This document shows, piece after piece, positions 554-56,313 of a DNA stretch of 64,000 nt (within the stretch, counting starts at the first letter, position 1; every line of letters begins with the position of its first letter). The notes beneath the pieces are model-generated. The model had not been told where the DNA came from, ran no database searches, and saw only the letters and a list, made by a program, of their open reading frames with translations. Position numbers and translations under genes: made by a program. Source of the DNA: Kocuria marina (GTDB lineage: Bacteria; Actinomycetota; Actinomycetes; Actinomycetales; Micrococcaceae); NCBI GenBank assembly GCA_014652975.1, contig BMZV01000007.1, positions 1 to 64,000 of the forward strand. The letters run 5' to 3'.

Positions 554-2377
554 TCAGTCCCGCAGCAGGTTCTTGCGCACCTTGCCCGTGGCCGTGCGCG
601 GCAGCTCGTCACTGAACACGACCGAATCCGGCACCTTGAACCCGCTGAGCTGGTTCCGGACGTGGTCGCGCAGGTCGTCCTCCGTGACCGTGGACCCGTT
701 CACCCGCACCACGTGCGCGACCGGGCGTTCGCCCCACTTCTCGTGAGCTACCCCCACGACGGCGACGTCCGCGACGTCCGGATGGGAGTAGAGGGCCTGC
801 TCCACCTCAATGGACGAGATGTTCTCCCCGCCGGAGATGATGATGTCCTTGGCGCGGTCCCGCAGCTGGATGTAGTTGTTGGGGTGCATGACCCCCAGGT
901 CACCCGTGTGGAACCACCCGCCCTCGAATGCCTTCCGCGTGGCGGGTACGTCCTTGTAGTAGCCGATCATCACGTTGTTGCCCCGCAGCACCACTTCCCC
1001 CACGGTTGTACCGTCCGCCGGCACGTCCTCGAGGGAGTCGTCCACCACGCGGGCGGATTCCGCCTGGATCATGGCCACCCCCTGCCGGGACATCTGCTGC
1101 GCCCGCTCCCGGGGCGAGAGCTCACGCCACTGTTCCTGGGGTTCGCAAATGGTGATGGGGCCGAAGACCTCGGTGAGCCCGTACACGTGGACGATGTCGA
1201 AGCCCGCGCTCTCCAGCCGCTCGATGATGCTCGGCGCGGGCGGGGCCCCGGCGGTCGTGATCCTGATGGTGTGTTCGAGTGGGTGGGCCTCCGGACCGTC
1301 CACGATGATCGAGCACACGGCCGGCGCGCCGCACAGGTGGGTGATGCCCTGCTCGTCGAACGCGCGCCAGATCTCGTCCGCGCGCACGGCCCGCAAGCAC
1401 ACGTGCGTGCCGCCCGCGGCGGTCACGGCCCACGTGGTGCACCACCCGTTGCAGTGGAACATGGGCAGGGTCCACAGGTACCGCGTGGCGCCGGTGAACC
1501 CATTGTGGAACACCTCCCCGAGGCTGTTCAGGTACGCCCCGCGGTGGCCGTACAGCACCCCCTTGGGGCGCCCCGTGGTGCCGGAGGTGTAGTTCAGGGT
1601 GATGGGCGCGTTCTCGTCCGCGACGCCGTAGCCGACGCCGCCCGACGCACCCGGTCCTGCCGGCTGGGCGGGCTCGACGTCGATGAACTCCTCGAACGTG
1701 GGCACTCCCGACCCCGCGCCGTCGCGAACGGGGTGCACGCCCGCCTGCGGGTCGTCGATCTGCACGAGCGTCACGTCTGACCCGTCACCGAGGGCCTGTG
1801 CGACGGTCTCGAGCACCGAGGTGTCCGCGAGCACCACGCGGGCTTCGCAGTGCTCGAGGATGTAGCTCAGTTCCCGCGCGCTCAGTCGCGGGTTGAGCGG
1901 CACCAACACCGCCCCGGCCGCCGGCACGGCGTAGTGCGCCATGAGTGTCGCGGGAAGATTGGGCGCGATCACCGCGACCGTGGGCCACGAGCACTCCAGC
2001 AACTCCGCGCCCTGGAACGATTCGTTCCCCTCACCCGAGGCCCCCGCGGATCGCTCGGACCCGGCAGTGTCGCCCGACTCGGCAGTTCCGGGCAAACCGC
2101 CCGTGACCGGTGACCCGGCGGACTCACGCGACCCCGCGGACTCGGGCGACCCAGCGGCGTCGTCCGATCCAGCGGACCCCCGGGAAGCAGCGCCCGCCGA
2201 GCCGTCGGAACCGGACAGCAGCGGCAACAGCGCCGTGGCGAACCGGCGCACGTCCCGTTCGAACTGCTCGTAGCTCCACACCCGCGAGCCGTGCACGATC
2301 GCCGGGCGGTCGGGGAAGACCTCGGCGCTGCGCTCGAGGAAGCGCAACGGGGTCAGCGGCTCGGTGTTCGCGAACAT
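554..2377 (-). CDS. acyl-CoA ligase (AMP-forming) with Ser/Gly-rich insertion
   Basis: Activates a fatty or other carboxylic acid to its CoA thioester through an acyl-adenylate. The 607-residue product has the P-loop-like motif YTSGTTGRPKG at about 263-273, the YGLTEV and HTGDLG segments, and a C-terminal TGKVRK with the expected catalytic lysine. Residues about 55-124 are a low-complexity run of Gly-Ser-Ala-Glu repeats that interrupts the N-terminal domain; without it the length is about 540, usual for the family. It follows the acyl-CoA dehydrogenase by 71 bp, so it is probably the last gene of a fatty-acid oxidation operon. The substrate chain length cannot be read from sequence. Confidence 0.9.
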   Translation of the reverse strand: MFANTEPLTPLRFLERSAEVFPDRPAIVHGSRVWSYEQFERDVRRFATALLPLLSGSDGSAGAASRGSAGSDDAAGSPESAGSRESAGSPVTGGLPGTAESGDTAGSERSAGASGEGNESFQGAELLECSWPTVAVIAPNLPATLMAHYAVPAAGAVLVPLNPRLSARELSYILEHCEARVVLADTSVLETVAQALGDGSDVTLVQIDDPQAGVHPVRDGAGSGVPTFEEFIDVEPAQPAGPGASGGVGYGVADENAPITLNYTSGTTGRPKGVLYGHRGAYLNSLGEVFHNGFTGATRYLWTLPMFHCNGWCTTWAVTAAGGTHVCLRAVRADEIWRAFDEQGITHLCGAPAVCSIIVDGPEAHPLEHTIRITTAGAPPAPSIIERLESAGFDIVHVYGLTEVFGPITICEPQEQWRELSPRERAQQMSRQGVAMIQAESARVVDDSLEDVPADGTTVGEVVLRGNNVMIGYYKDVPATRKAFEGGWFHTGDLGVMHPNNYIQLRDRAKDIIISGGENISSIEVEQALYSHPDVADVAVVGVAHEKWGERPVAHVVRVNGSTVTEDDLRDHVRNQLSGFKVPDSVVFSDELPRTATGKVRKNLLRD

Positions 2378-2448
2378 GGTGCTCCTGAACGGTCATGGCC
2401 CGTCACGCGCCGGACGGGCGCGAACCGGGCCGTGTGGGCACGAGCGGA

Positions 2449-3690: not shown

Positions 3691-3713
3691 GACTGGTCCT
3701 TCGCGATCAGGGG

Positions 3714-5813
3714 TTACTGCTGGGCGGCGTCGAAACGCCGGCCGCGGACGCGCTCGGCGGCGCCGGTGCGGTCCAGGTAGGGTGTGATGCCGCCCAGGTG
3801 GAACGGGTAGTTGGCGCCCAGGATCATGCACAGGTCCACGTCCCGTGCGGAGGCGACCACGCCCTCGTCGAGCATGTGCCCGATCTCGTCCGCGAGCGCG
3901 TCCTGGACGCGCGTGAGCAGCTCTCCCCCGGCGCCGTCGTCCGACGACGCCGCAACGCCGCTCTTCTGCCGCGTGCGCTCGAGTGCGTCGTGAGCCTCGG
4001 GCGAGAGGTAGGTCTGCGAGGTCTCGCCGCGCGCGGGCAGCGTGTGGGTCAGACCGGCGTCCGCGACGGCGTCGAGCCACGGAGAGAGGGTGAACCGGTC
4101 CGGGTAGGCGTCGTTCATGGTGTGCGTGATGTGCACGAGCACGGCCGGGCCCACGAAGTCGAGCAGCTGCAGCGGTGTCATGGGCAGCCCCATGGGGGCG
4201 AGGGCGTGGTCCACGGTCTCCGGATCGCCACCGGCGTCCATGGCGCGGCCAATCTCGTCGAACATGCGGGTCAGCACGCGGTTGACCACGAAGCTCGGGG
4301 CGTCCTCCACGCGCACCGCGATGCGCCGCAGCTTGGCGGCGAGGTCGAACGCGGTGGCCAGGGTGGAGTCGTCCGTCTGCTGCGCGGAGATGATCTCGAG
4401 CAGCGGGGTGACCTCCACCGGGTTGAACACGTGGAAGCCCACGAGCCGCTCGGGGTGCTTGAGGTCCCGGCCCATGGCCGTGACGGACAGGGACGAGGTG
4501 TTAGTCGCGAGGATCGCGTCCTCGCGGATCACGGGCTCCCACTGCGCGAAGACCTGCCGCTTCACCTCGAGCTCCTCGAAGACGGCCTCGATCACGAAGT
4601 CCGCGTCCGCGAGGTCCTGCGGGCTCTCGGCCCCCGAGATCAGGGAACCGAGCTGCTCCGCCTGCTCCGCGCTCATGCGACCCTTCTCGGCCTGGGCCGT
4701 GAAGCGGTCGCGGGTGCGCTGCACGCCTGTGGCGAGGCGCTCGTCGTCGAGGTCGGTCATCACCACGGGGACCCGGGCGCCCTGGGCGAGGAGGGACGCG
4801 AGCTGACCCGCCATGAGTCCCGCGCCGATCACCGCCGCCTTCTTGATCGGGCGCACGGCAGCGTCCGGGACGTTCGCGGCCTGTTTGCTGCGGGCGCTCA
4901 CGAGTTCGAACGCGTACAGGGACGCGCGGGCGGCGTCGGACTGCACGATCGAACTGAAGAGCTGGACCGCGGCGGCACCGTTGGCCTGGCGGGTGTCCGT
5001 GCGCGCACGGCCCACGAGGTCGATCGCGGCCACCGGGCCGGGAGCGGCACCGTGCCACGCGGCGTGGGCCTTGGCGGCGGCCTTGTCCACGGCGGCCTGC
5101 CAGGTCTGTTCGTCGTCGTCGGCGCGGCGCGGTTCGTGCTTGCCCTCGAGGGCCTCCACGACCCAGCGCTGCCACGCCGTCTCCCACTCGTCCGTGCCGG
5201 GGGCGGCATCCAGGACGGCGTCCACGAGACCGATCTCCGCGGCCTTGGCGGGCTTGAGGTTCCGCCCGCGCATGGAGTCCGTGACGATGATGTTCAGTGC
5301 CGCCTCAGCGCCTACCAGGTGCGGCAGCAGGTAGACGCCACCCCAGCCCGGAAAGAAGCCCAGCCGGCACTCGGGCAGACCCATGGGTGCCTTGCCGGAC
5401 GTGGCCAAGCGGTAGTCGGTGTGCAGCGCGATTTCCAGACCGCCGCCGAGGGCCACCCCCGTGATGAGCGAGAACGTGGGAACGGGCATCTCCGCCAGGA
5501 CGCCGAAGGCCTCGTGCCCGGAGCCGACGTAGTCCTCCGAACCCCCGTCGAACTGTGCGGCGCGGATCTCCTTGAGATTGGCGCCTGCACCGAACGACTT
5601 CTCGTTGCCCGTGACCACCACGGCCTCGACCTGCGAGGTGTCAATGGCCGAGAGCTCCCGGCGCAACTCGCGCATGGCCTCCGAACCCCAGATCACGAGC
5701 CCGTTGGGCTCCGTGGACCCCAGGGACACCAGGGCGATCGGTCGTTCCCGCCCGGGCAGGACGGGACGGGTCACGTCGATGGTCACGGTGGACGGGAAGG
5801 TCTGTTCGCTCAC
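3714..5813 (-). CDS. 3-hydroxyacyl-CoA dehydrogenase / enoyl-CoA hydratase (FadB/FadJ type)
   Basis: Two-domain beta-oxidation enzyme (699 aa). The N-terminal crotonase domain (about 15-200) has the oxyanion-hole segments SFGAGANLKE and GVALGGGLEIALHTDYR. A Rossmann NAD domain begins at about 327 (AAVIGAGLMAGQLAS), followed by the 3HCDH signature FHVFNPVEVTPLLEII and the C-terminal helical domains. The start is GTG 5813, with AGGAG just upstream. It is the first gene of the operon and is preceded by a perfect 25-bp inverted repeat. No thiolase gene is in the window, so the cycle is completed elsewhere. Confidence 0.92.
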   Translation of the reverse strand: MSEQTFPSTVTIDVTRPVLPGRERPIALVSLGSTEPNGLVIWGSEAMRELRRELSAIDTSQVEAVVVTGNEKSFGAGANLKEIRAAQFDGGSEDYVGSGHEAFGVLAEMPVPTFSLITGVALGGGLEIALHTDYRLATSGKAPMGLPECRLGFFPGWGGVYLLPHLVGAEAALNIIVTDSMRGRNLKPAKAAEIGLVDAVLDAAPGTDEWETAWQRWVVEALEGKHEPRRADDDEQTWQAAVDKAAAKAHAAWHGAAPGPVAAIDLVGRARTDTRQANGAAAVQLFSSIVQSDAARASLYAFELVSARSKQAANVPDAAVRPIKKAAVIGAGLMAGQLASLLAQGARVPVVMTDLDDERLATGVQRTRDRFTAQAEKGRMSAEQAEQLGSLISGAESPQDLADADFVIEAVFEELEVKRQVFAQWEPVIREDAILATNTSSLSVTAMGRDLKHPERLVGFHVFNPVEVTPLLEIISAQQTDDSTLATAFDLAAKLRRIAVRVEDAPSFVVNRVLTRMFDEIGRAMDAGGDPETVDHALAPMGLPMTPLQLLDFVGPAVLVHITHTMNDAYPDRFTLSPWLDAVADAGLTHTLPARGETSQTYLSPEAHDALERTRQKSGVAASSDDGAGGELLTRVQDALADEIGHMLDEGVVASARDVDLCMILGANYPFHLGGITPYLDRTGAAERVRGRRFDAAQQ

Positions 5814-12495: not shown

Positions 12496-12879
12496 TCAGC
12501 GACCGGTGCGCTCCCGATGTTTGCACCCGGGCCAGCAGCACGGGCGGCGCTTGCCCTCGTGCATTTCCTCCTCGGTGCGCCGGATCCGCCGCTGCCGGGT
12601 CTCCGGCTTCTGGGCATCCTCCACCCAGCACACGAACTCGTTGCGCCCGAGCGGAGTGAGTCCGCGCCACAGCTCGGCGGTCACGGGGTCCAGCGCGAGC
12701 GCTTCGGCGACGTCCGCGGGCAACTCGTGGACGACGCCGCCGGGGAGCCCGGACTGGGTGTTCGCGCCATCGATCGTGGCCAGGTTCTCGGCGGTCTCCG
12801 CGCCGTTCTCGTTCTGCGCGTCCGTCACGTTCGTCGCGTTCTCCGCGGACGACGCCGCAGTCCGGGTCGTGTTGGTCAT
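12496..12879 (-). CDS. YdeI/OmpD-associated family protein
   Basis: 127 residues. An Asn/Ala/Thr-rich N-terminal 45 residues precede a conserved C-terminal domain: LPADVAEALALDP, WRGLTPLGRNEFVCWVEDAQKPETRQRRI and a basic end with CCWPGCKHR. This matches the small YdeI-type domain (DUF1905/OmdA group), whose biochemical role is poorly known. The CxxxxC-H cluster at the end could bind metal. ATG 12879 has AGGAAGAG upstream. Single gene. Confidence 0.72.
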   Translation of the reverse strand: MTNTTRTAASSAENATNVTDAQNENGAETAENLATIDGANTQSGLPGGVVHELPADVAEALALDPVTAELWRGLTPLGRNEFVCWVEDAQKPETRQRRIRRTEEEMHEGKRRPCCWPGCKHRERTGR

Positions 12880-14287: not shown

Positions 14288-14899
14288 CTAACCCAGCAGC
14301 CCACCCACCCGGCGCATGAGGTCGGCCAGTCGAGCGGCGTCGTCGTCCTGGAGTGCGGGGAAGAAGAGCTCCTGGACGTCCCGCGCATGGGCGGGGCGCA
14401 GTTCGCGGAAGGCGCGCAGGCCCTCGGCTGTGAGCACCGCCTCGAAGCCGCGGCCGTCGCACTCCACGCGGCGGCGTACCACCCAGCCGCGCTTGCCCAG
14501 CACACCGATCTGGTAGCTCAACCGCGACGGCGAGAAGATCAGGCGGTGCGCCAGCTCACCCATGCGCATCCGGTGCTCGGGCGCGCTGTAGAGCAGCAGG
14601 AGCAACTGGTAGTCCATGAGCGAGCAACCGTGCTGCTTGAGCCGCTCCTCGATCCGGGCGGTGAGCAGCGCGGTGGTCTCGAAGTAGACCTGCCACGCGT
14701 CCCAGTCCTGCCGGGACGCGTCCGAGATACCCGCACGCGCCGCATCATCGAGAGATTCCGCGCCACCGATGCATGCCGCGCCGGTGGTGTCCGCGCCGTC
14801 TGAACCCGTCACGGGCTCGGACGGCGCGGTCTCGGCGTGCGCGGACCCGGACGGCGCAGCCTTGGACAAAGCAACGGCGCTGGTGGCCGTGTCGCTCAC
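14288..14899 (-). CDS. MarR-family transcriptional regulator
   Basis: 203 residues. The first 60 or so are Ala/Ser/Gly-rich and low complexity. The winged helix follows: MDYQLLLLLYSAPEHRMRMGELAHRLIFSPSRLSYQIGVLGKRGWVVRRRVECDGRG is a textbook MarR DNA-binding region in fragments. It is the third gene of the LLM monooxygenase/FMN reductase operon. Its start overlaps the reductase stop by 4 bp (ATGA), so it likely autoregulates the unit, possibly through the palindrome at 16845-16856. Confidence 0.88.
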   Translation of the reverse strand: MSDTATSAVALSKAAPSGSAHAETAPSEPVTGSDGADTTGAACIGGAESLDDAARAGISDASRQDWDAWQVYFETTALLTARIEERLKQHGCSLMDYQLLLLLYSAPEHRMRMGELAHRLIFSPSRLSYQIGVLGKRGWVVRRRVECDGRGFEAVLTAEGLRAFRELRPAHARDVQELFFPALQDDDAARLADLMRRVGGLLG

Positions 14900-16777: not shown

Positions 16778-16844
16778 GTCGGCCTCCTTGGCTTGTGGTC
16801 GACGACGCCGCAGCGCGAGTGCCGCAGCTCCGTTCCGTAGATAT

Positions 16845-18479: not shown

Positions 18480-19238
18480 ATGACGGTCATCGATCTGAAC
18501 AGCGACGTGGGCGAGTCGTTCGGCAACTGGCACATGGGCGACGACGCCGCCATCTTCCGTTCCGTCTCCTCCGCCAACGTGGCCTGCGGGTTCCACGCCG
18601 GGGACCCGGGCACCATGGCACAGACGTGCCGGGACGCGGTGGCCGCAGGAGTCACCGTGGGCGCCCACGTGGCGTACAGGGACCTGGCCGGTTTTGGCCG
18701 ACGGTTCCTGGACTGCTCCCCCACCGAACTCGCCGATGACGTGCTCTACCAAATGGGTGCACTCGAGGCGATGGCGCGCTCGGTCGGCACGACCATCAAA
18801 TACGTCAAACCCCACGGGGCGCTGTACAACACGATCGTCCACCACGAGGCACACGCGCAGGCGGTCGTGGACGCGGTCAAGGCGTTCGGCGGTGACCTCC
18901 CGTTGCTGCTGCTGCCCGGTTCCGTGGCCCTGGACAAGGCCGAGCGAGCGGGACTGCGTGGGGTGGCCGAGGCATTCGCCGACCGTGGGTACACCCCCGA
19001 GGGCACGCTGGTCTCCCGCCGCGAGCCAGGCGCTGTGTTGCACGACGCCGCCCAGGTCACCGAGCGCATGATCCGCCTGGCCGAACACGGCACGCTGACC
19101 GCGGTGGACGGCTCCACAGTGCACCTCGCCACCGAGAGCATTTGCGTGCACGGGGACACCCCCGGGTCCGCAGCCATGGCCGCCGAGGTCCGCGCGGGTC
19201 TGGAGCGCGCGGGCATCACGATCCGGTCGTTCGTGTGA
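18480..19238 (+). CDS. pxpA: 5-oxoprolinase subunit PxpA (LamB/YcsF family)
   Basis: 252 residues with the family start [30 protein letters not shown] and [15 protein letters not shown]. With PxpB and PxpC it forms the prokaryotic ATP-dependent 5-oxoprolinase, which opens pyroglutamate to glutamate. It is the first gene of a four-gene operon. Its stop overlaps the GTG start of pxpBC by 4 bp. The GntR-like palindrome upstream is its likely control site. Confidence 0.93.
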
Positions 19239-27935: not shown

Positions 27936-28007
27936 TCCCCGACCCCTGTTCTTCGGCCGCCCCGCGGCGACCACTCGGAAACGACGACGCCGCGGCCGCC
28001 CTTGGCC

Positions 28008-40710: not shown

Positions 40711-41860
40711 CGCCCTCCCGGATCCGCGCGGGAGCAACACCGGAGAACGCGAGCCGCACCGCGTCCGAGTCCCGGCCATCCATGTAACACGCCGAGCCCG
40801 GTACCAGGACCACCCCATGGGCGATCGCCTCCGCGAGGACGTCCTTGCCCACCAACCCGTCCGCCGTGACCCACGTGAAGAACCCGCCCGTGGGCGTGGT
40901 CCACCGCGCGGAGGACGGCATGAACTCGGTCAACGCCGCGTCCATGGCTTCCCAGCGCTCGCGGTACAGGGTCACAGCGTTGTCGAGCGCGGGCTCCCAG
41001 TGCTCGGAACCCACCCACGCCGTGACGAGGGACTGTGCCAGGTTGGACGGGTGGATCACCACGGACTCCGCGGCGATCTGCAACCGGCCCCTGACCTCCG
41101 GGGGAGCCGCGATCCAGCCGATCCGCAGCCCCGGGGCGAAGATCTTGGAGAAGCTGCCCAGGTGGATCACGTGCTCCGGGTCCATCCCGTGCATCGAGGC
41201 CAGGGGCTGCGCGCGGTCGAAGGACAGCAGGGCGTAGGGATCGTCCTCGATGATCATCACGTCCCGATCGGCGCACACCCGCACCAGTTCGCGCCGCCGC
41301 TCCACCGGCATGGTCACGCCCGTGGGGTTCTGGAAACTGGGGATCACGTACACGAACGGGACGCGCTCACCCTGCGCCGCGGCGTCGTCCAACGCGTCGG
41401 CGACGGCGCTCGGGTCCATGCCGTGCTCGTCCACCGGGACGTGACGCACGTCCACCTCGTACGCGCCGAACACGCCCAGCGCACCCACGTAGGTGGGGCC
41501 CTCGGCCAGGATCACGTCCCCGGGATCGCAGAACAGCTTGGTCACGAGGTCCAACCCGGCTTGGGACCCGGTGGTCGGCAGGACGTCCGCCTCCGTGACC
41601 GTGGACCCGCCCCGCGCCATGAGCCGCACGCTCAGTTCGCGCAGGCCCGCGGTCCCCGCGCCGGAACCGTACTGCAGGATCTCACCGGCGCGCTCACGGA
41701 TCAGCTGCGCGGCCAGATCCCCCACGGTCCCGCCCGGCAGCACGGACAGATCCGGGTTGCCCCCGGCCAGGGACACCACCGAGGGGTCCATGGCCGTCTC
41801 GAACACCGCGCGCACCGGGGAGGGCCGGAACTCCCCCGCGCGGGACGCGAACGCGCTCAT
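40676..41860 (-). CDS. PLP-dependent aminotransferase, class I (LysN/KAT-like)
   Basis: 394 residues. ISL-type N-terminus [57 protein letters not shown] and [17 protein letters not shown], in which the Lys binds PLP. It resembles 2-aminoadipate/multi-substrate transaminases without a GntR head. The start ATG 41860 overlaps the stop of the agmatinase gene by 4 bp (ATGA). Together they suggest degradation of an amine- or guanidine-containing amino acid. Confidence 0.9.
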
Positions 41861-44319: not shown

Positions 44320-46043
44320 GCAACGAGAACACGGTCACCGCCGCCCCCGGGGGGTTCGAGAACCCGGCGGGGGCGGCGTCGTCGCACCCCGAGCGCACCA
44401 CGGCCCGTGCCGTCCTGGAGACGCTGCGCGGCTACGGGATCGACACGGTCTTCGGCATCCCGGGCACGCACTCGCTCGAGTTCTACCGGCCGCTGCGCGA
44501 GCTGGGGATCCGCCCGATCACCACGCGCCACGAACAGGGCGCGTCCTACGGCGCGGACGGTTGGTCCCAGGTGCGCGGGCTGCCCGGCGTGGTCATCACG
44601 ACCTCCGGACCCGGCCTGCTCAACTCACTGTCCGGCGCGGCCACCGCGTACGCCGAGTCCCGGCCCATGATCCTGCTCTCCCCGGGGCGGCCCGTGGGAC
44701 ACGACTTCCGGGACATCGGCTCGCTGCACGAGACCAAGAACCCGTCCGCCGCGGTCAATGCGATCGTGGGCGTGTCCCGGCGCGTGACCTCCGCCGCCGA
44801 GGCCGTGACCATGATCCACGACGCCATGCGCGACTTCGCACACTCCCGGCCGCGGCCCATCCACATCGAGATCCCCCTGGACATCCTCGAGGCCCCCGCG
44901 GACGTCCCCGAGTCCGCGACCGCACCCCGCCCCCTGGGCGAGCCCGCGCCGGCACCGGAGGCCGACGTCGCCGCGGCCGTCGAGGCGCTCGCCGCGAGTG
45001 AGCGCCCGGTCATCCTGGCCGGCGGTGGTTCCCTGGCCGCCGGGGAGCACCTGCTCGAGCTGGCCGAACTGCTCGAGGCACCCGTGATCACCACGACCAA
45101 CGGCAAGGGAGCGATCCCCGAAAAACACCGGCTCTCCCTGGGCGCGGACCTGCGGCTGAGCACGGCCCACGAGTTCCTGCGCTCGCGGGACGCCCTGCTC
45201 GTGATCGGCTCCAAGGTGGGCGAGGCCGAGCTGTGGGGCGGCGACATCACCCCGCAGGGGCCCGTGGTGCGCGTGGACATCATGCGCGACCAGATGCTGT
45301 GCAACCTCACCCCGGACGTCGAGGTCCCGGGCAACTCCGCCGCGGTGGTCCCCCAGTTGCTCGCTGGTCTGCGGGCGCGGGCCGACGCCGGGGGGCCCGG
45401 CCACGCCGCCGGCTCGGCCGACGTCGCCGACTCGGATGCGGCGGGCGACGTCGCGCCCTCCGCGCGGACGGCACCAGACCTGCGCGAGGTCTTCGATGCG
45501 ATGGATGAGGAGGGCCGCACGTGGGCCCCCGAGCTCGCGGCGCTCAACGAGACCATCATGGACGTGGTCCCGGACGACACGATCCTGGCGGGCGACTCGT
45601 CCCAGGTGACCTACATGGGATCCACCACGTTCTTCCGCGCACCCGTTCCCCACTCCCTGCTCTACATGGGGACGTACGCGACGCTGGGTTACGGCCTGCC
45701 CGCGGCGATCGGCGCCAAGCTGGCCGCGCCCGAGCGCCCGGTGGTGTGCCTCGTGGGGGACGGCGCCCTGATGTTCTCCATCCAGGAACTGATGACCGCG
45801 GTGGAACTGGGCCTGGACCTGCCCGTGATCTGCGTGGACAACGGCGGCTACGGGGAGATCCGGCAGAACATGGTGGACCGCTCCATCCAGCCGCTCGGTG
45901 TGGACCTCGTGCAGCCGGACTGGGTGCGCTTGGCCGAGGGCTTCGGCGCCACTGGCCTCCCCGCGACCATGGACACCCTCGCGGACACGGTGCGCACGGC
46001 GCTGGAGACCAAGGGGACGAGTTTGGTGCACCTCAAGATCTGA
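44316..46043 (+). CDS. thiamine diphosphate-binding enzyme (acetolactate synthase-like)
   Basis: 575 residues with three domains. The N-terminal ThDP domain (YGIDTVFGIPGTHSLEFY, catalytic Glu in TTRHEQGASYGADGW) is followed by a central domain. The C-terminal PP domain carries GDGALMFSIQELMTAVELGLDLPVICVDNGGYGE (GDG...NN-type motif). Similar proteins accompany agmatinase/guanidinobutyrase genes in actinobacteria and probably act on a 2-oxo acid from the pathway. The ATG overlaps the symporter stop. An Asp/Ala-rich linker lies at about 355-390. Confidence 0.87.
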   Translation: MSNENTVTAAPGGFENPAGAASSHPERTTARAVLETLRGYGIDTVFGIPGTHSLEFYRPLRELGIRPITTRHEQGASYGADGWSQVRGLPGVVITTSGPGLLNSLSGAATAYAESRPMILLSPGRPVGHDFRDIGSLHETKNPSAAVNAIVGVSRRVTSAAEAVTMIHDAMRDFAHSRPRPIHIEIPLDILEAPADVPESATAPRPLGEPAPAPEADVAAAVEALAASERPVILAGGGSLAAGEHLLELAELLEAPVITTTNGKGAIPEKHRLSLGADLRLSTAHEFLRSRDALLVIGSKVGEAELWGGDITPQGPVVRVDIMRDQMLCNLTPDVEVPGNSAAVVPQLLAGLRARADAGGPGHAAGSADVADSDAAGDVAPSARTAPDLREVFDAMDEEGRTWAPELAALNETIMDVVPDDTILAGDSSQVTYMGSTTFFRAPVPHSLLYMGTYATLGYGLPAAIGAKLAAPERPVVCLVGDGALMFSIQELMTAVELGLDLPVICVDNGGYGEIRQNMVDRSIQPLGVDLVQPDWVRLAEGFGATGLPATMDTLADTVRTALETKGTSLVHLKI

Positions 46044-48375: not shown

Positions 48376-51009
48376 ATGAGCGAGCACGCCAGCGCAGCGC
48401 TGCCCGAGCACACCGACATCCTGATCATCGGGGCCGGCCTCAGCGGGATCGGTGCGGCCTGCAAACTCCGCTACGAACATCCCGGCAAGAGCATCACGGT
48501 GCTCGAGTCCCGCGGGAACTCCGGTGGCACGTGGGATCTCTTCCGCTACCCGGGGGTCCGCTCCGACTCGGACCTCTACACCTACGGCTACGACTTCCGC
48601 CCATGGACCCGACAGAACCCCATCGCGGAGGGCTCCGCGATCCTGGACTACATCCGCGACACCGCTCGCGCCTCCGGGGTTGACAAGCTCATCCACTACC
48701 ATCGGCGCGTCACCGCCGCGGATTGGTCCTCCGGGGCCAGCCACTGGACCGTGACGGTCGAGCGCACCGCGCCACCCGAACCCCGCGCGGGGGCGGCTCC
48801 GAGCGACGTCGGCGGCGGCGCACCCGGGCACTCGGCTGATGGCCCGCAGCCCGACGACGCCGCACCGTCCGGTCGCTGCCCCCGTAATGACACCGTGCCG
48901 GGCAACGCCGAACGCCCCGCAACTTCCGATCGATCCGCCCACGCCGCGGTCGACGGCGCCGCGCGGCCCGAACCCATCGGCACCGGCGAGACCCAGCCGA
49001 TCACCGCCACGTGGGTGTTCATGGCCACCGGGTACTACGGCTACGACCGCCCCCACATCCCGGACTTCGCGGGGGTCGAGGGGTTCAGGGGCCAGCTCGT
49101 GCATCCCCAGTTCTGGCCCGAGGACCTGGACGTCCGGGGCAAGAAGGTCGCCGTGATCGGTAGCGGGGCCACCGCGGTGACCCTGCTGCCCGAGCTCGTC
49201 ACGCGGGGTGCCGAGACCACGATGGTGCAGCGGACGCCGTCGTACATCCTGCCCCTACCCTCCCCCGGCGTGGCCGAGAAGGTGCTGTTCATGGTGCTCG
49301 GCAGGGCACGGGCGGCGCGAGTGCTGCGCCCGCTCATGGCCGCGGGGCAGAGAGCACTGTGGGTGGCGAGCAAGGCCGCGCCGCGCGTGGTGCGGGCGGG
49401 AATCGCGGCCGTGAACCGCCGTCGCCTCCCTGCGGACGTCTCCGTCCGGGAGCACTTCACCCCGCCGTACGACCCGTGGGACCAACGGCTGTGCGTGGCG
49501 CCCAACGGGGATTTCTTCGCAGCGTTGCACGAACCCAACGCCCATATCGTGACCGCGGGCATCGACCGTTTCGACGCGGACGGCCTCGTCCTGACGGACG
49601 GGCGGCGGGTGGCGGCGGACGTCGTCGTGAGCGCCACGGGCTTCGACCTGCTCATGTTCGGCGGCGCGCGCTTGAGCGTGGACGGGCGACCCGTGAACCT
49701 CCCCGAGCGGATCGCCTACCGCGGCGCCATGCTGAGCGACGTGCCCAACCTGGCCTTCGCGATTGGGTACACGAACGGGTCGTGGACGCTGAAGATCGGA
49801 CTCGTGGTGGACTGGCTGTCCCGGTTGATCGCGCACACGGATTCCGTGGGCGCGGCGTCAGTGCGCCCGGTCGCACCCGAGGGTCTGCGCACGCGCCCGT
49901 TGCTGGACTTCGACGCCGGCTACGTCCAACGCTCCCTCGACCAGCTGCCCCGCCAGGGGGACACGGCGCCGTGGCGGATGGCCATGAACTACTTCGATGA
50001 CCGGCGTCAGTTGTTGCGTAAGCCGGTCGTGGATCGATTCCTGCGGTTCGACGACGCCGCCGCTCCCGTTCCCGAGCAGCTGCCCGCCCTGCTCACGGGC
50101 CCCGGTGAGAGCGGTGAGGAACGCACGGTGCAGTTGGATGATGACCATTTCATCTGCGTGCGCCTGGACGGGCCGTCCGACGGGGCGCCGCTCGTGTTGA
50201 TCACCGGGCTCGCGTTCGACCTGGCCACGTGGCCCATGTCCTTCGTCCATGCCCTCGCGGATCGCGGGTACCGGGTGATCCGCCTGGACAACCGGGACGT
50301 GGGCCGTTCCTTCCGGGTGACCTCCACGCCCCCTTCGGCCCGCCGGTTGCTGCGCGGGCCCCTGCCGGAGGGGCAGTACTCCGTGGAGGACATGTCCGAG
50401 GACGTCGCGGACACCCTGCGGACGCTGGGGGTCGAGCAAGCGGATGTCATGGGGTTCTCACTCGGTGGGATGATCGCCCAGTCGTTGGCGGGCCACCACC
50501 CCGAGCTGGTGCGGCGACTCATTTCCCTGTGCTCCACCACGGGCGATCCGTCCGTGGGGACGGCCGCGACCTCCACCGCGGCGTTGCTCATGTTCCCCGG
50601 GGCGAAGACCCGGGACATGTACATCCGGGGGCGACTGGTCATGTCCCACCACCTGGCCGGTCCGGGGTTCCCCGTGGACGTGGCGTACGAACGTCAACTC
50701 GCCGCAACCCACTGGGACCGCAGCCTGGATCCGCGAGGTGAGGCTGAGGCGATGCGCCGTCAGATCGGGGCGATCCGCTCATCCGGGGACCGCACGGAGG
50801 TGCTGTCCCGGATCACCGCCCCCACGCTGGTGATCCACGGGGACAAGGACAAGATCGTGCGCCCGGACGGCGGCCCCGCCACGGCCGAGGTCATCCCCCA
50901 TGCGCGCTTCGTCCGGATCCCCGGGATGGGCCACCAGGTACACCCCATGGTGGTCCCGCGGTTGTTCGAACTGGTCATCGACCACCTGGGGGACCCGCGG
51001 GAGGGGTGA
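48376..51009 (+). CDS. Baeyer-Villiger-type flavin monooxygenase fused to alpha/beta hydrolase
   Basis: 877 residues. The N-terminal FAD monooxygenase (1-560) has LIIGAGLSGIGAACKLR, GGTWDLFRYPGVRSDSD, the Baeyer-Villiger-like motif FRGQLVHPQFWP, and VAVIGSGATAVTLLPEL for NADPH. A Pro/Ala/Gly-rich insertion of about 75 residues (about 135-210) splits it. The C-terminal hydrolase (about 585-877) has GFSLGGMIAQSLAG with the nucleophile Ser, and a late PGMGHQVHP with the His. The first half would turn a ketone into an ester and the second would cleave it. A -10-like TACGAT ends 6 bases before the ATG. Confidence 0.9.
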   Translation: MSEHASAALPEHTDILIIGAGLSGIGAACKLRYEHPGKSITVLESRGNSGGTWDLFRYPGVRSDSDLYTYGYDFRPWTRQNPIAEGSAILDYIRDTARASGVDKLIHYHRRVTAADWSSGASHWTVTVERTAPPEPRAGAAPSDVGGGAPGHSADGPQPDDAAPSGRCPRNDTVPGNAERPATSDRSAHAAVDGAARPEPIGTGETQPITATWVFMATGYYGYDRPHIPDFAGVEGFRGQLVHPQFWPEDLDVRGKKVAVIGSGATAVTLLPELVTRGAETTMVQRTPSYILPLPSPGVAEKVLFMVLGRARAARVLRPLMAAGQRALWVASKAAPRVVRAGIAAVNRRRLPADVSVREHFTPPYDPWDQRLCVAPNGDFFAALHEPNAHIVTAGIDRFDADGLVLTDGRRVAADVVVSATGFDLLMFGGARLSVDGRPVNLPERIAYRGAMLSDVPNLAFAIGYTNGSWTLKIGLVVDWLSRLIAHTDSVGAASVRPVAPEGLRTRPLLDFDAGYVQRSLDQLPRQGDTAPWRMAMNYFDDRRQLLRKPVVDRFLRFDDAAAPVPEQLPALLTGPGESGEERTVQLDDDHFICVRLDGPSDGAPLVLITGLAFDLATWPMSFVHALADRGYRVIRLDNRDVGRSFRVTSTPPSARRLLRGPLPEGQYSVEDMSEDVADTLRTLGVEQADVMGFSLGGMIAQSLAGHHPELVRRLISLCSTTGDPSVGTAATSTAALLMFPGAKTRDMYIRGRLVMSHHLAGPGFPVDVAYERQLAATHWDRSLDPRGEAEAMRRQIGAIRSSGDRTEVLSRITAPTLVIHGDKDKIVRPDGGPATAEVIPHARFVRIPGMGHQVHPMVVPRLFELVIDHLGDPREG

Positions 51010-51110
51010 GCCTCTTCCGGCGGGGCTCCCGTGCCGAGGCGTAACTCTCAGGCACTCCGAGGCCATGGCGTAATTTCTGGTCGCGTGGAGGCCACTTCAC
51101 CCCACCCCAT

Positions 51111-51196: not shown

Positions 51197-52527
51197 TGGG
51201 AAGTGGGCGCTGTCTCGGCCCGCTCGGCCCGCGAGGGGACGCGGCCACTGCGCAGCAGCACCACCGCGGCCACCGCTCCCACTGCGCCCGCCACCGTCAA
51301 CGGCACCGTGAGCAGTGTGACGATCTCCCACAACGGCGGCACCACGGCACACACGAGTGCCACGACCACGGCGGCATTGGACAACCGGATGGGGCGGGCG
51401 CCCCACGGTGCCGTGGATGAGGACTCGAGCCGCCGCAATACCGTGGCCACCACGAGCACCACCGCCCAACACAGGACGGTCAAGGGGATCCGCAGCCACC
51501 ACCAGGCGGCGGAACCGGGGACGGGGTCGTAGCCCACGGCGAAGAACCACACCGCCATGACCGCCACCACCACGGGCAGGTGCCACAGGTAGATGGTCAA
51601 CGCACGAGTACCCACCACATACACCACCGCCCGGACCACCCGGGAGTGCATGGCCCGCCGCAACAGCGGGGAGAACACCTCCAGCAGACACGCCTGAGCG
51701 AAGCCCAGCAGCACCATGCACACGGTGGGCGGATTGAGGTTGGTGAGCATGTCCGGGGCGTAGGACCCGGAGGCCACGCACACCCCGGACACGGCGTAGC
51801 ATCCCGCGGCAAGCGCCACGAGCACCGGTCGACGCCGCGCCCCGAACCACCCGTCCGCCCGGAAGAAGCCGAACTGCTGGATGAGCGGCCACACGAACAC
51901 CATGTTGAGCAGCCCCCACCACTGCCAGCCGGTGGTCAGGCGCAGCAGGTCCACGGCCACCGCGCACGAGAACAGGAACCAGCACCACACCCACCCCATG
52001 CGTTCGTGCAGGTCCACGAACAGCGGTGCCAATCCCTGGCAGACGAGGTAGGCCGCCAGGAACCACAACGCCATCCCCACACCGGACAGCGCGAACGTCA
52101 CGAGTTCGATCCCGGCTCCCGCCACCACCGCGATCCCCGCACCGAGGGCGAGCACACACCACAGCACCGCCGCGGGTTGGATCAGCCGCAGCGTGCGTTC
52201 CCGCACGTACTCGCCCCGCGCCATTCCCCGGGCCCGACGACGCCGCCACGCCCCCGCCGTGGCCGTCCCACCCACCACGAAGAACAGGGGCATGATCTGC
52301 AGGAGCCACGTGGCCCACCAGTACCAGGGCTGCTGAGTCGGGACCAGGACAGAGCGGATCTCCCCGGTGGCGGGATCCGCCGTGAGGGTGACCATGAGGA
52401 TGTGACTGCACACCACGGTGATCACGCACCCCACGCGGGCGACGTCCACGGCGGGGTCGCGTTCGAAGTCCCCCGCGGGGACGGAAACAGCAGTGGGCCG
52501 CCCGAGGGCGCGGACGTCGTCGTTCAT
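51187..52527 (-). CDS. acyltransferase family 3 membrane protein
   Basis: 446 residues, about ten membrane helices. Acyltransferase-3 features are the early VDVARVGCVITVVCSHI (conserved R and H), WLLQIMPLFFVVGGTATAG, YVRERTLRLIQPAAV and the late LTIYLWHLPVVV. These enzymes acylate cell-surface sugars or lipids. Start at ATG 52527; the frame continues upstream by chance. The 52528-52800 gap to the divergent kinase carries short CGCACCCCGCA-type repeats but no gene. Confidence 0.85.
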   Translation of the reverse strand: MNDDVRALGRPTAVSVPAGDFERDPAVDVARVGCVITVVCSHILMVTLTADPATGEIRSVLVPTQQPWYWWATWLLQIMPLFFVVGGTATAGAWRRRRARGMARGEYVRERTLRLIQPAAVLWCVLALGAGIAVVAGAGIELVTFALSGVGMALWFLAAYLVCQGLAPLFVDLHERMGWVWCWFLFSCAVAVDLLRLTTGWQWWGLLNMVFVWPLIQQFGFFRADGWFGARRRPVLVALAAGCYAVSGVCVASGSYAPDMLTNLNPPTVCMVLLGFAQACLLEVFSPLLRRAMHSRVVRAVVYVVGTRALTIYLWHLPVVVAVMAVWFFAVGYDPVPGSAAWWWLRIPLTVLCWAVVLVVATVLRRLESSSTAPWGARPIRLSNAAVVVALVCAVVPPLWEIVTLLTVPLTVAGAVGAVAAVVLLRSGRVPSRAERAETAPTSQAR

Positions 52528-52800: not shown

Positions 52801-54465
52801 ATGAGCACCACAGCCTCGAATCCCACGCCACCGTGGGACGCCACAGAGCCCATCTCCTCGGACATCGAACGCACCCGGCCGATGCCCTCGGCCGGTTCCT
52901 CACCCGCAGACGCTGAGACCACCCGGACCCTGCCGCCTCCCGGGCACCCGGAACCCCCGCGGGCCGCCTCCGTGGCACGCCCGGCACCGGAAGGGCCGCA
53001 CATCGCTCCCCGCGAGTGGCGGACCTTCTCCCTCAAGACCCTGTTCTTCGGGACCCTGGACCTCGTGGTGGACTCGGTGCTCAACACCGTGCTGCTCGTC
53101 GTGATCCTCACGTTCCTCGCGGTGGGAGCCGCAACCGTTCCGGCGCTGGGCCTGGGCGTGTTGATCCTCGCCGCGACCGTGTACGTGATGATGGGGGCGG
53201 TGTGGCTGGAACGCAGGCGTTCGGCTTCGTCGTTCGGCCTGGACATCCGGGACCCCCAGCGCCGCCGCAGCCCGCATACCGACTGGGTGCGGGTCCCGCA
53301 CCAGTGGTGGCTGGACGCGAGCGACGGGTCCCTGTGGCTCGGCATGCTCCACGTGGCGCTCACGTGCGCGCTGGGCTGGCTCATGCTGTTGCCCTTCGTG
53401 GTGGGTAGCGCGGCCCTCGTGCTGACCTTCGCGCCGTGGTTCGCCCCCGAATCCTCGGTGCTGTGGCCCGCGCTGCAGAACACCCCGCGCTGGACGCCCC
53501 CGATGCTGGGTGTCGCAGGCGTGCTGCTGAGCATCATGCTCGCGGTGCTGCTCACCTTGGCTCACCGCGGTCTGTCCGCGGGGCTGTTGCGGCTGAGCGA
53601 GGCCGCGCGTCTGCGCCGTGAAGCGGACGAGCTGCAGCGCCTCGCCGAGTACGAGACCGCCGCCAAGGAGTCCGCGGTACGCGGTGCGGAGACCGAGCGC
53701 TCGCGCATCGAACGCGATCTGCACGACGGCGTCCAGCCCCAGTTGGTCTCGGTCGCCATGAACCTCTCGATGGCCGGTTCACGCATCGACACGGATCCCG
53801 CCGCGGCCAAGGAGCTCGTGGCGGAGGCGCACGGCACCACCAAGGCCGCGATCACCGAGCTGCGCCGGCTCGCCCGCGGGTTCCACCCCGCCGTGCTGGA
53901 GGATCGGGGGCTCGACGCCGCTCTGTCCGCCGTCGCCGCCCAGGCACCCTTCCCCGTGGACGTCTCCGTGAACGTCCCCCGGTTGCAGCCGCGCACGGAG
54001 GCGGCCATCTACTTCGCGGTCTCCGAGAGCCTCAGCAACGCGATCAAGTACTCGGGGGCGCGCTCTGCGGACGTCGCAGTGTCCATCCAGGACGGCGCCG
54101 CACCGGGCACGAACATCGTGGTCGCCGGTGTGCGCGACTTCGGCCGCGGCGGCGCCCGTGTGGTCCCCGGGGGCGGGCTCTCCGGGATCCAGGACCGGAT
54201 CCGCTCGGCCGGGGGCAGGTTCTTCGTGAACTCGCCCGCAGGTGGGCCCACCGAGGTCATCGTGGAGCTGCCCCTCACGGGTGTCCCTCCGACGACGACG
54301 CACAGCGCCTCGCGCGCGTCCGGCACCGCATACACCCCTCACCCCGGCCACGCCGACGGGGTCCACGCCGCGACCGGAACCGGTCCGACCGCGCACGGTG
54401 CGGCGGGGGCGGGAACGGGCGGAGCGGCGTCGTCGTCCGCCGGGCAGCACGGACGGGGGAACTGA
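52801..54465 (+). CDS. NarL-type sensor histidine kinase
   Basis: 554 residues. The N-terminal 75 are polar. Four membrane helices (about 80-265) in a DUF4153/sensor-like block are followed by a HisKA_3 dimerisation helix with ETERSRIERDLHDGVQPQLV (His is the phosphate acceptor). The ATPase domain shows YFAVSESLSNAIKYSGA (N box) and GGGLSGIQDRI (G box). The last 55 residues are Gly/Ala/His/Thr-rich. The response regulator follows after 1 bp. The downstream DUF4097-like protein suggests envelope sensing (inference). Confidence 0.9.
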   Translation: MSTTASNPTPPWDATEPISSDIERTRPMPSAGSSPADAETTRTLPPPGHPEPPRAASVARPAPEGPHIAPREWRTFSLKTLFFGTLDLVVDSVLNTVLLVVILTFLAVGAATVPALGLGVLILAATVYVMMGAVWLERRRSASSFGLDIRDPQRRRSPHTDWVRVPHQWWLDASDGSLWLGMLHVALTCALGWLMLLPFVVGSAALVLTFAPWFAPESSVLWPALQNTPRWTPPMLGVAGVLLSIMLAVLLTLAHRGLSAGLLRLSEAARLRREADELQRLAEYETAAKESAVRGAETERSRIERDLHDGVQPQLVSVAMNLSMAGSRIDTDPAAAKELVAEAHGTTKAAITELRRLARGFHPAVLEDRGLDAALSAVAAQAPFPVDVSVNVPRLQPRTEAAIYFAVSESLSNAIKYSGARSADVAVSIQDGAAPGTNIVVAGVRDFGRGGARVVPGGGLSGIQDRIRSAGGRFFVNSPAGGPTEVIVELPLTGVPPTTTHSASRASGTAYTPHPGHADGVHAATGTGPTAHGAAGAGTGGAASSSAGQHGRGN

Positions 54466-54466
54466 G

Positions 54467-55123: not shown

Positions 55124-55131
55124 GACATCTC

Positions 55132-56313
55132 ATGAGCAATCAGAATCCCTCGCATCCCACGCCCGATCCTCACAACGCAGCCGGCCCCCGGGACCTGCCT
55201 GATCCTCGGAACGACCGTCCCGTGGGGCGCGGTGAGCGCCGCGCCTGGAACACCGCGACCGCCGTGGTGGGCGGTGTGGGTGCCCTCGCCCTGCTGCTCG
55301 GCGGGGCCGGAACCGCCACCGCGGTGGCCATGACGCAGGAGCGGGACGGTTCGTGGACGGCGTCGTCGGACGTGGAACGGATCCGGATCGACACCCCCTC
55401 GGGCATGGTCAGCGTGAACACGAGCCCGACCGTTGATCGTGTCCAAGTGCAGTGGCACGACTCCGGATGGTCCTTGTCCGAGCGCGGCGTCATCCCTTCC
55501 GTTCGCGACGGCGTGCTGCAGCTGGATATGCCCGGCCGGCCCTCTCAATGGGGTTCCGGCGTGCAAAGCGTCAGCATCACCGTTCCTCAGGACGGCCCGC
55601 GCACCTCGCTCGACCTCAAGAGCGGCACGGGAGCGGTGCACGTGAACGGCACGTACCGGGACGTGCGGGCGAGGACCGATCTGGGGTCCATCAGCGCCAC
55701 GGACGTGGAGGCCGCTGTGTTCGACGCCCACGCCACCACGGGTCAGGTGCTCCTGGACGGGGTCAGCGTGAAGAACCGGCTGGACGCGCACGCCAACCAG
55801 GGCGGGGCGCTCGTGAACGTGCGGGGCACGGCTCCTCAGCGCACCTCGGTCACCGCGACCAGCGGGGTTTACGGGATCTCGATGCCCGCTGCCGACTACT
55901 GGTACCCGCAGGACAGCCAGCGCGACGTCGCGGACCCGCGGCACCCCGTGACCACGACGCCGGGGTCCAACGAACGGCCGGGTGGGGCTCGTTCCTCGGG
56001 TGCGCCCACCTCTCCGGACTATACGGGCGACGACGCCGCGCGGCCGTCCGAGGTCAGCGCGGACACGGTGTGCGCCGCAGCCCCCGAGGGCCAGCCGTGC
56101 TTGTTCGTGTCGGGTACGCCGGTGGGCGTCAATGACTACTCCTACATGCGGGAGTGGAGCCAGGGGTGGGACGAGGTGGCCCGCGAGTACGGGGAGGCGC
56201 CTCGGTCTTCCGAGCGGGCGACGGAGTCGAAGCAGCCCATTGACCGTGCAACGGATGCGGCCATGGCATCCCCCACGGGATCCGCCACACCGTCCCCCGC
56301 CGACGGGAACTGA
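55132..56313 (+). CDS. membrane-anchored DUF4097-like adhesin/sensor-domain protein
   Basis: 393 residues. A Pro/Asn-rich cytoplasmic start (1-42) and one helix (about 43-66, VVGGVGALALLLGGAGTATA) lead to an extracellular beta-rich domain. It shows the DUF4097 pattern (VERIRIDTPSGMVSV, TSLDLKSGTGAVHVNGTYRDVRA, LGSISATDVEAAVFDAHATTGQVLL). A disordered tail follows with two Cys (VCAAAPEGQPCLF). It starts 8 bp after the response regulator and is probably part of the same operon. Role unknown; related proteins sit next to kinases of the LiaS type. Confidence 0.78.
   Translation: MSNQNPSHPTPDPHNAAGPRDLPDPRNDRPVGRGERRAWNTATAVVGGVGALALLLGGAGTATAVAMTQERDGSWTASSDVERIRIDTPSGMVSVNTSPTVDRVQVQWHDSGWSLSERGVIPSVRDGVLQLDMPGRPSQWGSGVQSVSITVPQDGPRTSLDLKSGTGAVHVNGTYRDVRARTDLGSISATDVEAAVFDAHATTGQVLLDGVSVKNRLDAHANQGGALVNVRGTAPQRTSVTATSGVYGISMPAADYWYPQDSQRDVADPRHPVTTTPGSNERPGGARSSGAPTSPDYTGDDAARPSEVSADTVCAAAPEGQPCLFVSGTPVGVNDYSYMREWSQGWDEVAREYGEAPRSSERATESKQPIDRATDAAMASPTGSATPSPADGN

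Follow-up and report, generated by a model that had tools for sequence, protein, structure and literature searches.

The window analysed here, a 64,000-nucleotide stretch of Kocuria marina DNA, carries 19 exact copies of the 11-mer GACGACGCCGC between positions 2154 and 56039 (13 on the plus and 6 on the minus strand), and the repeat unit behind them is a 12-mer, CGACGACGCCGC, with sharp bounds. We lean towards reading CGACGACGCCGC as a self word of the uptake type, carried by a Kocuria lineage and hence by Gram-positive bacteria.

The word, its bounds and its distribution

A sequence-only reading of the window had claimed 19 exact copies in 56 kb, all of which were recovered, and its claim of over-representation was confirmed: in 100 dinucleotide shuffles of the window GACGACGCCGC averaged 0.38 copies and never exceeded 2, and among window 11-mers with at least five copies it had the top z-score (19 against 0.28 by a third-order Markov model). 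Copies with one change do exist, as stated there, but 38 one-mismatch sites were found (57 sites in total, for which 10.7 were expected, minus the 19 exact ones) instead of six, and the positions given were 1 to 29 bases off, the nearest real sites being 13821, 19041, 36518, 46814, 46838 and 55357. Based on our own gene calling, 16 of the 19 exact copies lie inside predicted genes and three are intergenic (Table 1).

Table 1. Exact copies of the 11-mer in the window, and the word-free right end
Feature	Position	Strand	Context
Word copy	2154..2164	-	in gene 554-2377 (-), frame Asp-Asp-Ala
Word copy	3943..3953	+	antisense in gene 3714-5813 (-), frame Ala-Ala-Ser; next to it, at 3931, an inverted copy with one mismatch
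Word copy	12730..12740	+	antisense in gene 12496-12879 (-)
Word copy	12848..12858	+	antisense in gene 12496-12879 (-)
Word copy	14334..14344	-	in gene 14288-14899 (-); identical in G010 and G012, with one mismatch in four other relatives
Word copy	16801..16811	+	intergenic; identical in G012, with one mismatch in G010
Word copy	18540..18550	+	in LamB/YcsF gene 18480-19238; exact in 5/6 aligned relatives
Word copy	21430..21440	+	in gene 21019-22821 (+)
Word copy	22579..22589	-	antisense in gene 21019-22821 (+)
Word copy	27983..27993	+	intergenic
Word copy	31998..32008	+	intergenic; may form a hairpin with an inverted partner at 32014 (one mismatch)
Word copy	33274..33284	+	in dehydrogenase E1 gene 32260-33462
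Word copy	41379..41389	-	in aminotransferase gene 40676-41860 (-)
Word copy	44373..44383	-	antisense in TPP-enzyme gene 44316-46043
Word copy	48853..48863	+	in gene 48376-51009 (+)
Word copy	50050..50060	+	in gene 48376-51009 (+)
Word copy	52236..52246	+	antisense in acyltransferase gene 51187-52527 (-)
Word copy	54424..54434	-	antisense in sensor-kinase gene 52972-54465
Last window copy	56029..56039	+	in gene 55222-56313 (+)
Word-free right end	56040..64000		two-component system, P-type ATPase, DUF305; word-free on to contig end 70963

The excess extends over the whole genome of 2.79 Mb, where 538 copies of GACGACGCCGC were counted against 12 of the reversed word. A 464-kb sample of this genome had 117 copies, with 2.19 expected by a third-order and 10.2 by a fifth-order Markov model, i.e. 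the 11-mer core stands at ~50 and ~11 times the respective expectation. Position -1 of the 117 sampled copies is C in 84, G in 27, T in 6 and A in none, and position +11 has no information content. The exact 12-mer was found 84 times and each single-base variant 0-13 times, with the exception of G at -1 (27), the variants summing to 147. The word has the length of an uptake-type word (9-12 bases) and exceeds both composition and codon controls very strongly.

A word-rich clade of 12 Kocuria genomes carries 241-606 copies of the 12-mer each; the other 15 Kocuria genomes have 3-115, and the 236 non-rich genomes in a draw of 245 Micrococcaceae have at most 149. Since the word is common to these 12 genomes, the proposed "species-specific" word was too narrow a term, and it is the clade-specificity expected of an uptake-type word that was observed. 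The edges of the word vary by species: spacers of the relative G005 favour A at the 5' side, and in those of G006 the 11-mer may begin with C or A in place of its first G. Looser ACGACGNCG words in G007 and G017 reach ~3.6 to 6.2 times their synonymous shuffles and are too loose to be called a dialect.

Some further counts were obtained in the family. Two Micrococcus genomes (one M. terreus, one MAG) contain 45 and 43 copies of the 11-mer, and the high 11-mer count of G084 was rejected as enrichment, being close to its own Markov expectation (10 vs 4.5 in 60 kb). In another genus of the Micrococcaceae, G052 (~57-58% GC; no sharp extension of the word at the 12 sites inspected) and G133 have 124 and 112 copies of the 12-mer, with 0 and 5 of the reversed word.

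A candidate DNA uptake word

Among the three options offered by the sequence-only reading, the DNA uptake word is the best supported, and its chances appear somewhat better than even. CGACGACGCCGC would be a genome-wide "self" tag of the Kocuria clade, with the role that DNA uptake sequences have in Neisseria and Haemophilus: in competent cells, word-bearing DNA would be bound better than word-free DNA, by means of a Flp/Tad pilus and ComEA/ComEC. Copies would arise by point mutation, biased uptake would spread the new ones through the population since word-bearing DNA would be taken up and recombined more often, and recombination would replace lost copies. Two parts of this picture are inferred, namely a protein that recognises the word as DNA is taken up, and the maintenance of the word by biased uptake.

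The genes for such a machinery are present. A ComEC match was found in 26 of 27 Kocuria genomes, as was a ComEA-like match (3 above the curated cut-off, the one in the genome of the window included) and the Flp pilin DUF4244. In the genome of the window the comEA-like gene is directly upstream of comEC, and pilus motor and platform genes stand beside the Flp pilin, which gives it a putative uptake machinery. None of the 27 genomes has an N-methyl type IV prepilin match, thus with Flp pilin genes there is no ComP-type receptor in view, and no candidate receptor for the word was identified in the genomes examined. Two small proteins adjoining the Flp pilin were considered as possible minor pilins; neither has a Pfam match or is basic. 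The machinery does not predict the word, since 13 of the 15 word-poor Kocuria genomes have the complete trio of ComEC, ComEA and Flp pilin matches; with these genes present on both sides, gene content was discarded as a separator of the rich and poor groups.

Additionally, the word is missing from certain stretches of DNA. Between 56040 and position 70963, where the contig ends, lies a metal-resistance region with no copy, and in this respect the claim that the copper island lacks the word was correct; however, with 2.9 copies expected (P = 0.056) and the left edge defined by the last copy, this stretch on its own is weak evidence for absence from foreign DNA. The first 20 kb of contig C8, with phage integrase and M23/SLT genes, and contig C10, with CopD and cation efflux genes, together have 0 copies against 6.5 expected (P = 0.0015). 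In all, 20 kb of a contig with an integrase and two metal-resistance stretches lack the word. The density in foreign islands, which had been suggested as a check, thus gave a divided answer: C8 and C10 are word-free, but genes with atypical codons are not word-poor (20.7 copies per 100 kb in the lowest 15% of the genome of the window). Codon typicality was rejected as a proxy for foreign genes, the lowest 15% not being depleted, and this counts against the uptake reading.

Certain Gram-negative bacteria select the DNA they import by self tags of this kind. A 2025 text gives two families, Neisseriaceae and Pasteurellaceae, as the only ones with known uptake sequences (PMC12616744). The DUS of Neisseriaceae are described as words of 10-12 bases with a sharp core, in about a thousand to several thousand copies, with inverted pairs tied to terminators and with clade-wide dialects (PMC3630211). 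The Kocuria word resembles them on these points, its own dialects being putative; it differs in its unrelated sequence, in its Gram-positive actinobacterial host with Flp pilin genes and in its uptake role being predicted. It is also several times less dense: N. meningitidis is given ~1900 copies of a 10-mer in 2.2-2.3 Mb (PMC3630211), and the ~108-294 copies of the 11-mer per Mb counted here are well under this, which also counts against the uptake reading. The USS of Pasteurellaceae are likewise presented as a short self word, genome-wide and often in inverted pairs (PMC12616744), unrelated in sequence to the Kocuria word and belonging to another phylum and envelope type. Closer by descent is Micrococcus luteus, of the same family, reported to transform via Flp pili (PMC4322843, PMC6370729); ComEA-like, ComEC and Flp/Tad genes are shared with Kocuria, and a term search of one M. 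luteus study (PMC4322843) gave no uptake sequence, DUS or USS. Among the literature matches listed, no report of natural transformation in Kocuria was seen, and none of the papers containing the exact letters of the word concerned Kocuria, judged by title.

The wider proposal, namely a DNA uptake sequence system that evolved on its own as the third of its kind, without precedent in a Gram-positive (monoderm) phylum or for a Flp/Tad pilus apparatus as the reader, with species-level dialects and reshaped proteins, stands in our judgement at about even chances, and the form (A)CGACGACGCCGC given for the clade tag in it is just as evenly balanced. If true, this third case, from Gram-positive bacteria with no match to N-methyl type IV prepilins, would show that such words have evolved more than twice and do so repeatedly, its independent origin beside word-poor sister species would allow a test of why uptake words arise, and the word would offer a handle for transforming Kocuria.

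Strand, spread and turnover

In 23 sampled windows of the complete relative G006, 63 copies were leading and 64 lagging with the terminus placed half way (59 and 70 with the terminus near 1.8 Mb instead), and the copies per window were near-Poisson (mean 5.6, variance 6.1). Neither here nor in the genome of the window (282 and 256 copies by strand) was a clear replication-strand bias seen: as in an uptake-type word, the copies lie on both strands, chromosome-wide and without replication polarity. The suggested chromosome-organising motif, if polar, is disfavoured by this even split and spread, and a KOPS/FtsK polar word, which needs strong origin-to-terminus polarity, was rejected on the same G006 figures. 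Chi, KOPS and HIP1 are frequent short words of bacterial chromosomes, Chi and KOPS being strand-polar and HIP1 a palindrome; they would not explain the clade restriction or the absence from mobile DNA.

A Chi-like signal, read by a helicase-nuclease in double-strand break repair, would fit a short, very frequent, non-palindromic word occurring in genes and spacers, and is linked to recombination in principle. We consider it unlikely: known Chi sites are oriented, and no clear bias of this kind was seen with either terminus; Chi sites are as a rule shorter than 12 bases; none of the 27 Kocuria genomes has a match to RecC (PF04257); and word-free relatives would require another signal. Also unlikely is the binding site of a chromosome-organising protein (nucleoid-associated, SMC-type, Noc- or MatP-like), to which the chromosome-wide, strand-neutral and near-Poisson spread would be well suited. 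Noc, MatP and KOPS-type sites have ori/ter gradients or polarity, however, and the 23 G006 windows had neither; furthermore, such a site would not predict the absence from C8 and C10, and its free turnover between species speaks against it.

Beyond ~13 bases, the sequences around the copies show no relation to one another. Where the genome of the window and its relative G010 differ, a single substitution separates them at 6 of 9 sites and one to three substitutions at 8 of 9, and word positions change between species largely by point mutation. The self-spreading repeat, the third suggestion, is disfavoured because of these unrelated flanks and few substitutions; a longer repeat unit (no shared flanks) and a REP/MITE-type mobile repeat (no sequence shared beyond the word) were rejected likewise. 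In G010, 21 of 25 positions are kept against a background of 0.68-0.71 (P = 0.06-0.10), and more distant relatives keep from 1 of 2 to 1 of 10, mostly near background; position conservation, not being significant, was dropped as proof of selection.

Turnover by point mutation and the clade-wide appearance would also be expected if the word were a by-product of a clade-specific, context-dependent bias of mutation, methylation or repair, and the weaker excess of ACGACGNCG words in G007 and G017 agrees with it. This explanation is nevertheless quite improbable: the exact 12-mer stands far above each single-base variant, which a short-context bias would hardly yield, and the word occurs in several reading frames and in spacers alike.

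Inverted pairs, codons and proteins

Facing pairs not more than 40 bases apart, a feature of uptake-type words, were found ten times against 0.67 expected, several with extended stems, and make up a small minority of 358 copies. Of the intergenic copies of the 10-mer core, 19 of 98 in G006 and 9 of 41 in the genome of the window are followed by an inverted partner that is exact or one base off (counts without control), and with up to three mismatches a partner was found for 12 of 14 intergenic copies in G005, against 148 of 392 control words. These pairs would suit a family of transcription-terminator or REP-like hairpins spread between genes. Such a family is very unlikely, and terminators were rejected as the whole cause: most copies are single and genic, spread along whole genes and, in the genome of the window, mildly more frequent towards both gene ends; the intergenic ones occur in spacers of either kind, divergent and convergent, and their flanks share little; and loose pairing is not clearly above that of GC-rich control spacer words in the genome of the window (19/32 vs 725/1787), G006 (26/56 vs 1301/2682) or G010 (4/7 vs 234/559).

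Least probable is an origin in the codons and dipeptides that a GC-rich genome favours, which would suit the 69 of 84 genic copies read in frame as GAC GAC GCC or GCG GCG TCG and the 50-200 copies of the 11-mer often present in other GC-rich genera, but which leaves 84 genic copies against 21.8 +/- 3.9 in 200 synonymous shuffles, and 32 intergenic copies against 0.39 by the third-order Markov model (~80-fold), in the sample of the genome of the window. Synonymous shuffling accounts for perhaps a quarter of the genic copies. In six other word-rich genomes (20 shuffles each) the observed and shuffled genic counts were 72/22, 22/5.8, 16/3.7, 15/4.5, 10/2.5 and 6/0.8, and word-poor Kocuria samples of 40-60 kb had only 0-5 genic and 0-1 intergenic copies. 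The earlier statement that coding bias is not sufficient is thereby upheld, the counts being far above the shuffled-codon controls, and codon bias was ruled out as the whole cause.

The word excess is held even at the cost of altered proteins, and a 12-base word that skews proteins across a clade would need a cause even if its reader protein had another role. Asp-Asp-Ala-Ala (DDAA) is 5.1 to 7.5 times as frequent as expected in all seven word-rich samples and 0 to 3.4 times in ten word-poor ones (small counts). DDAE and ADDA are likewise enriched 2 to 3 times in the genome of the window and in G006, thus part of the peptide skew may be a preference for Asp-Asp-Ala. Ala-Ala-Ser-Ser (AASS) reaches 2.2 to 6.3 times its expectation in the word-rich samples, against 0 to 1.7 times in the word-poor ones.

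Abundance, exact unit and occurrence of the word

In the sequence-only reading 19 exact copies of the 11-mer had been counted in the window, and this count was borne out: dinucleotide shuffles give 0.38 copies, and the word has the top z-score among the 11-mers of the window. In the whole Kocuria marina genome (2,786,137 bases, 21 contigs, the window being on contig C7) the word occurs 538 times, with 282 copies on the forward and 256 on the reverse strand; the reversed word, used as control, occurs 12 times. In the alignment of 117 copies from 464 kb of this genome (the window and 20 further stretches) position -1 was constrained (C 84, G 27, T 6, A 0) and position +11 carried almost no information, therefore the unit is best given as the 12-mer CGACGACGCCGC. 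It is present in 84 exact copies against 0 to 13 for each one-base variant, except for G at -1 (27); the one-base variants sum to 147, and the best-tolerated changes inside the 11-mer are T or A at base 8 and T at the last base. In spacers, A is preferred to some degree before the 12-mer (20/41 in K. marina, 11/15 and 38/98 in the relatives G005 and G006), while no such preference was found in the genes of K. marina. The G006 spacers contain 98 copies of the shorter 10-mer core, in which the first G of the 11-mer is replaced by C in 31 and by A in 11, and CCGG or ACGG often follows on the 3' side, that is, the edge of the word is altered. Two palindromes are also over-represented in the window: GCACCGCGGTGC with 3 sites (6 in the double count, vs 0.19) and CACCGCGGTG with 9 (18 in the count, vs 2.4).

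Among 27 Kocuria genomes the 12-mer occurs 241 to 606 times in 12 (word-rich) and 3 to 115 times in 15 (word-poor). The word-rich set consists of K. marina and exactly those 11 genomes in which the dehydrogenase E1 protein shows 86% identity or more to that of K. marina; in the word-poor genomes this protein is at most 73% identical, three of them having a distant match only (about 40% or less). Among 245 evenly drawn Micrococcaceae genomes, nine rich Kocuria exceeded all 236 others (maximum 149 copies of the 12-mer). Two genomes of another Micrococcaceae genus, G052 and G133, in which the 12-mer occurs 124 and 112 times vs 0 and 5 times for the reversed word, may represent a second lineage that carries a related word; G052 has a GC content of about 57-58%, and AGCT continues 5 of the 12 word sites read in it. 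Other short words were also seen: overlapping intergenic words in the G008 sample (CCACCTGGCTCA and CTGGCTCACCCC, eight copies each, L068-L070), unrelated to the word and perhaps a repeat family, and, in the G084 sample (L224-L226), CACCGCTGGGAC in 19 copies beside 14 copies of CTGGGACGCCAA, a word of the overlapping type; these presumably stem from a coding or tandem repeat.

Copies in genes and spacers

Genes were called by our own uncurated codon-model caller (400 genes, 85% of the bases of the 464-kb sample), which placed 84 of the 117 copies in genes, 32 in spacers and one at a gene edge. Spacers make up 14.7% of the bases yet hold 27% of the copies (binomial P = 0.0002), and a Markov-3 model predicts 0.39 copies for them. 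The earlier claim that coding bias is insufficient to account for the word was confirmed, since 200 synonymous shuffles gave 21.8 +/- 3.9 genic copies vs the 84 observed. This excess was present in all seven rich samples tested. In word-poor samples the genes contain between 0 and 6 copies, numbers too small to give fold values; smaller genic excesses were seen in 200 kb each of G007 (6 vs 0.9, with 5 intergenic copies) and G017 (6 vs 1.4, with 2 intergenic copies). The same two genomes carry a looser ACGACGNCG family (L053-L055, L065-L067, L193-L206) at about 3.6 to 6.2 times the synonymous shuffles, related to the word and possibly a dialect of it.

A 2009 paper by Findlay and Redfield reportedly deals, by its title, with how uptake sequences affect proteomes. 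In the proteins of the K. marina sample Asp-Asp-Ala-Ala occurs 51 times vs 8.0 expected and Ala-Ala-Ser-Ser 34 times vs 7.1. The observed/expected ratio of Asp-Asp-Ala-Ala lies between 5.1 and 7.5 in 7/7 word-rich samples; in ten word-poor ones, of which the G004 sample is poorly gene-called, it ranges from 0 to 3.4 on expected counts of about 0.3 to 3. DDEA was not enriched in the word-rich samples; DDAE and ADDA were 2 to 3 times enriched in K. marina and G006, thus the word need not cause all of the peptide skew.

Turnover and word-free DNA

Compared with G010 (96% identity, 88 kb aligned), 21 of 25 K. marina copies were intact; control 11-mers were kept at 0.68 to 0.71, the difference being not significant (P = 0.06 to 0.10). 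Nine sites were exact in just one of the two genomes, six differing by one base, two by two or three and one by seven. At larger distances (Table) exact-site retention was mostly near background; nevertheless the density of the word is maintained.

Table. Aligned word copies of the window that are exact in relatives at 76-82% identity
Genome	Exact	Aligned
G006	2	8
G022	1	10
G005	1	6
G025	2	11
G012	3	9
G018	1	2

The word had also been described as absent from the right-hand island. The absence itself stands, with no copy from 56040 to the contig end at 70963, but as depletion it is weak (2.9 expected, P = 0.056), and the left edge of this stretch is set by the last copy. The word-free end encodes a two-component system, a P-type ATPase and DUF305. 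Together, the first 20 kb of contig C8 (phage integrase, M23 and SLT peptidases) and the 13.6 kb of C10 (CopD/CtaG, cation efflux, Nramp) have 0 copies vs 6.5 expected (P = 0.0015). The word is also absent from C11, a contig of 10.4 kb with genes for an ABC transporter and cytochrome bd, and from the 3.1 kb of C12; 20 kb of C9 hold 4 copies. Genes in the lowest 15% by codon typicality carry the word about as often as the others, which counts against depletion in foreign DNA. The C8 start (L213), on a 38-kb contig of lower GC (0.626), also encodes a helicase with an NgoFVII-like restriction domain and reads as an integrative or plasmid-like element. The two metal-resistance stretches, window 57436-63771 and C10 (L215), lie on separate contigs and are perhaps one island divided by the assembly.

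Strand, inverted pairs and the likeness to uptake sequences

The G006 genome consists of a single contig (2,697,540 bases), whose first ORF, judged by eye, is presumably dnaA. Its 23 sampled windows contain 64 forward and 65 reverse copies at near-Poisson counts per window (mean 5.6, variance 6.1). With the origin at position 1 and the terminus half way (about 1.35 Mb), 63 copies are leading and 64 lagging, the single window that lies at 1.35 Mb itself (1/1) being excluded. The split becomes 59/70 if the terminus is put near 1.8 Mb, the GC skew being too weak for placing it. In 1.43 Mb of rich-clade sequence (358 copies), 22 neighbour pairs lay within 100 bases vs about 9 expected. Within 40 bases there were 10 facing pairs vs 0.67 expected (P ~3e-9), 4 back-to-back (P = 0.005) and 1 same-strand vs 1.3 expected, the pairs being not wholly independent because the pooled genomes are related. 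Several facing pairs are prolonged into longer, terminator-like stems. Intergenic copies were found in tandem, convergent and divergent spacers; genic copies were spread over the full length of genes, in K. marina with a slight enrichment towards either end.

A Chi-type recombination signal is disfavoured by the strand neutrality of the word and by the lack of a RecC match in all 27 Kocuria genomes. DNA uptake sequences are described, in PMC3630211, PMC5031613 and PMC12616744, as motifs of 9-12 bases in hundreds to thousands of copies, with frequent inverted pairs at terminators and with dialects. Our analysis suggests that the word resembles them, because it is strict, strand-neutral, clade-specific and found in inverted pairs, and furthermore because its turnover is largely by point mutation, its genic copies exceed what codons explain, and 20 kb of an integrase-bearing contig lack it; however, the uptake sequences of Neisseria are denser. 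PMC12616744 gives uptake-type words from two families alone, Neisseriaceae and Pasteurellaceae; none outside these was found in open-licence papers, several searches covering just the top matches, and this is weak evidence of absence.

Matches to comEC and to ComEA were each found in 26/27 Kocuria genomes; three of the ComEA-like matches exceed the curated cut-off, and that of K. marina, which does so, lies just upstream of comEC. The Flp pilin DUF4244 is likewise present in 26/27 and adjoins T2SSF and T2SSE genes in K. marina. Since no N-methyl prepilin match was found in the 27 genomes, a putative surface reader of the word would probably be a Flp/Tad-type pilin or ComEA rather than a ComP homologue. 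ComEC, ComEA and the Flp pilin are also matched in 13 of the 15 word-poor Kocuria.
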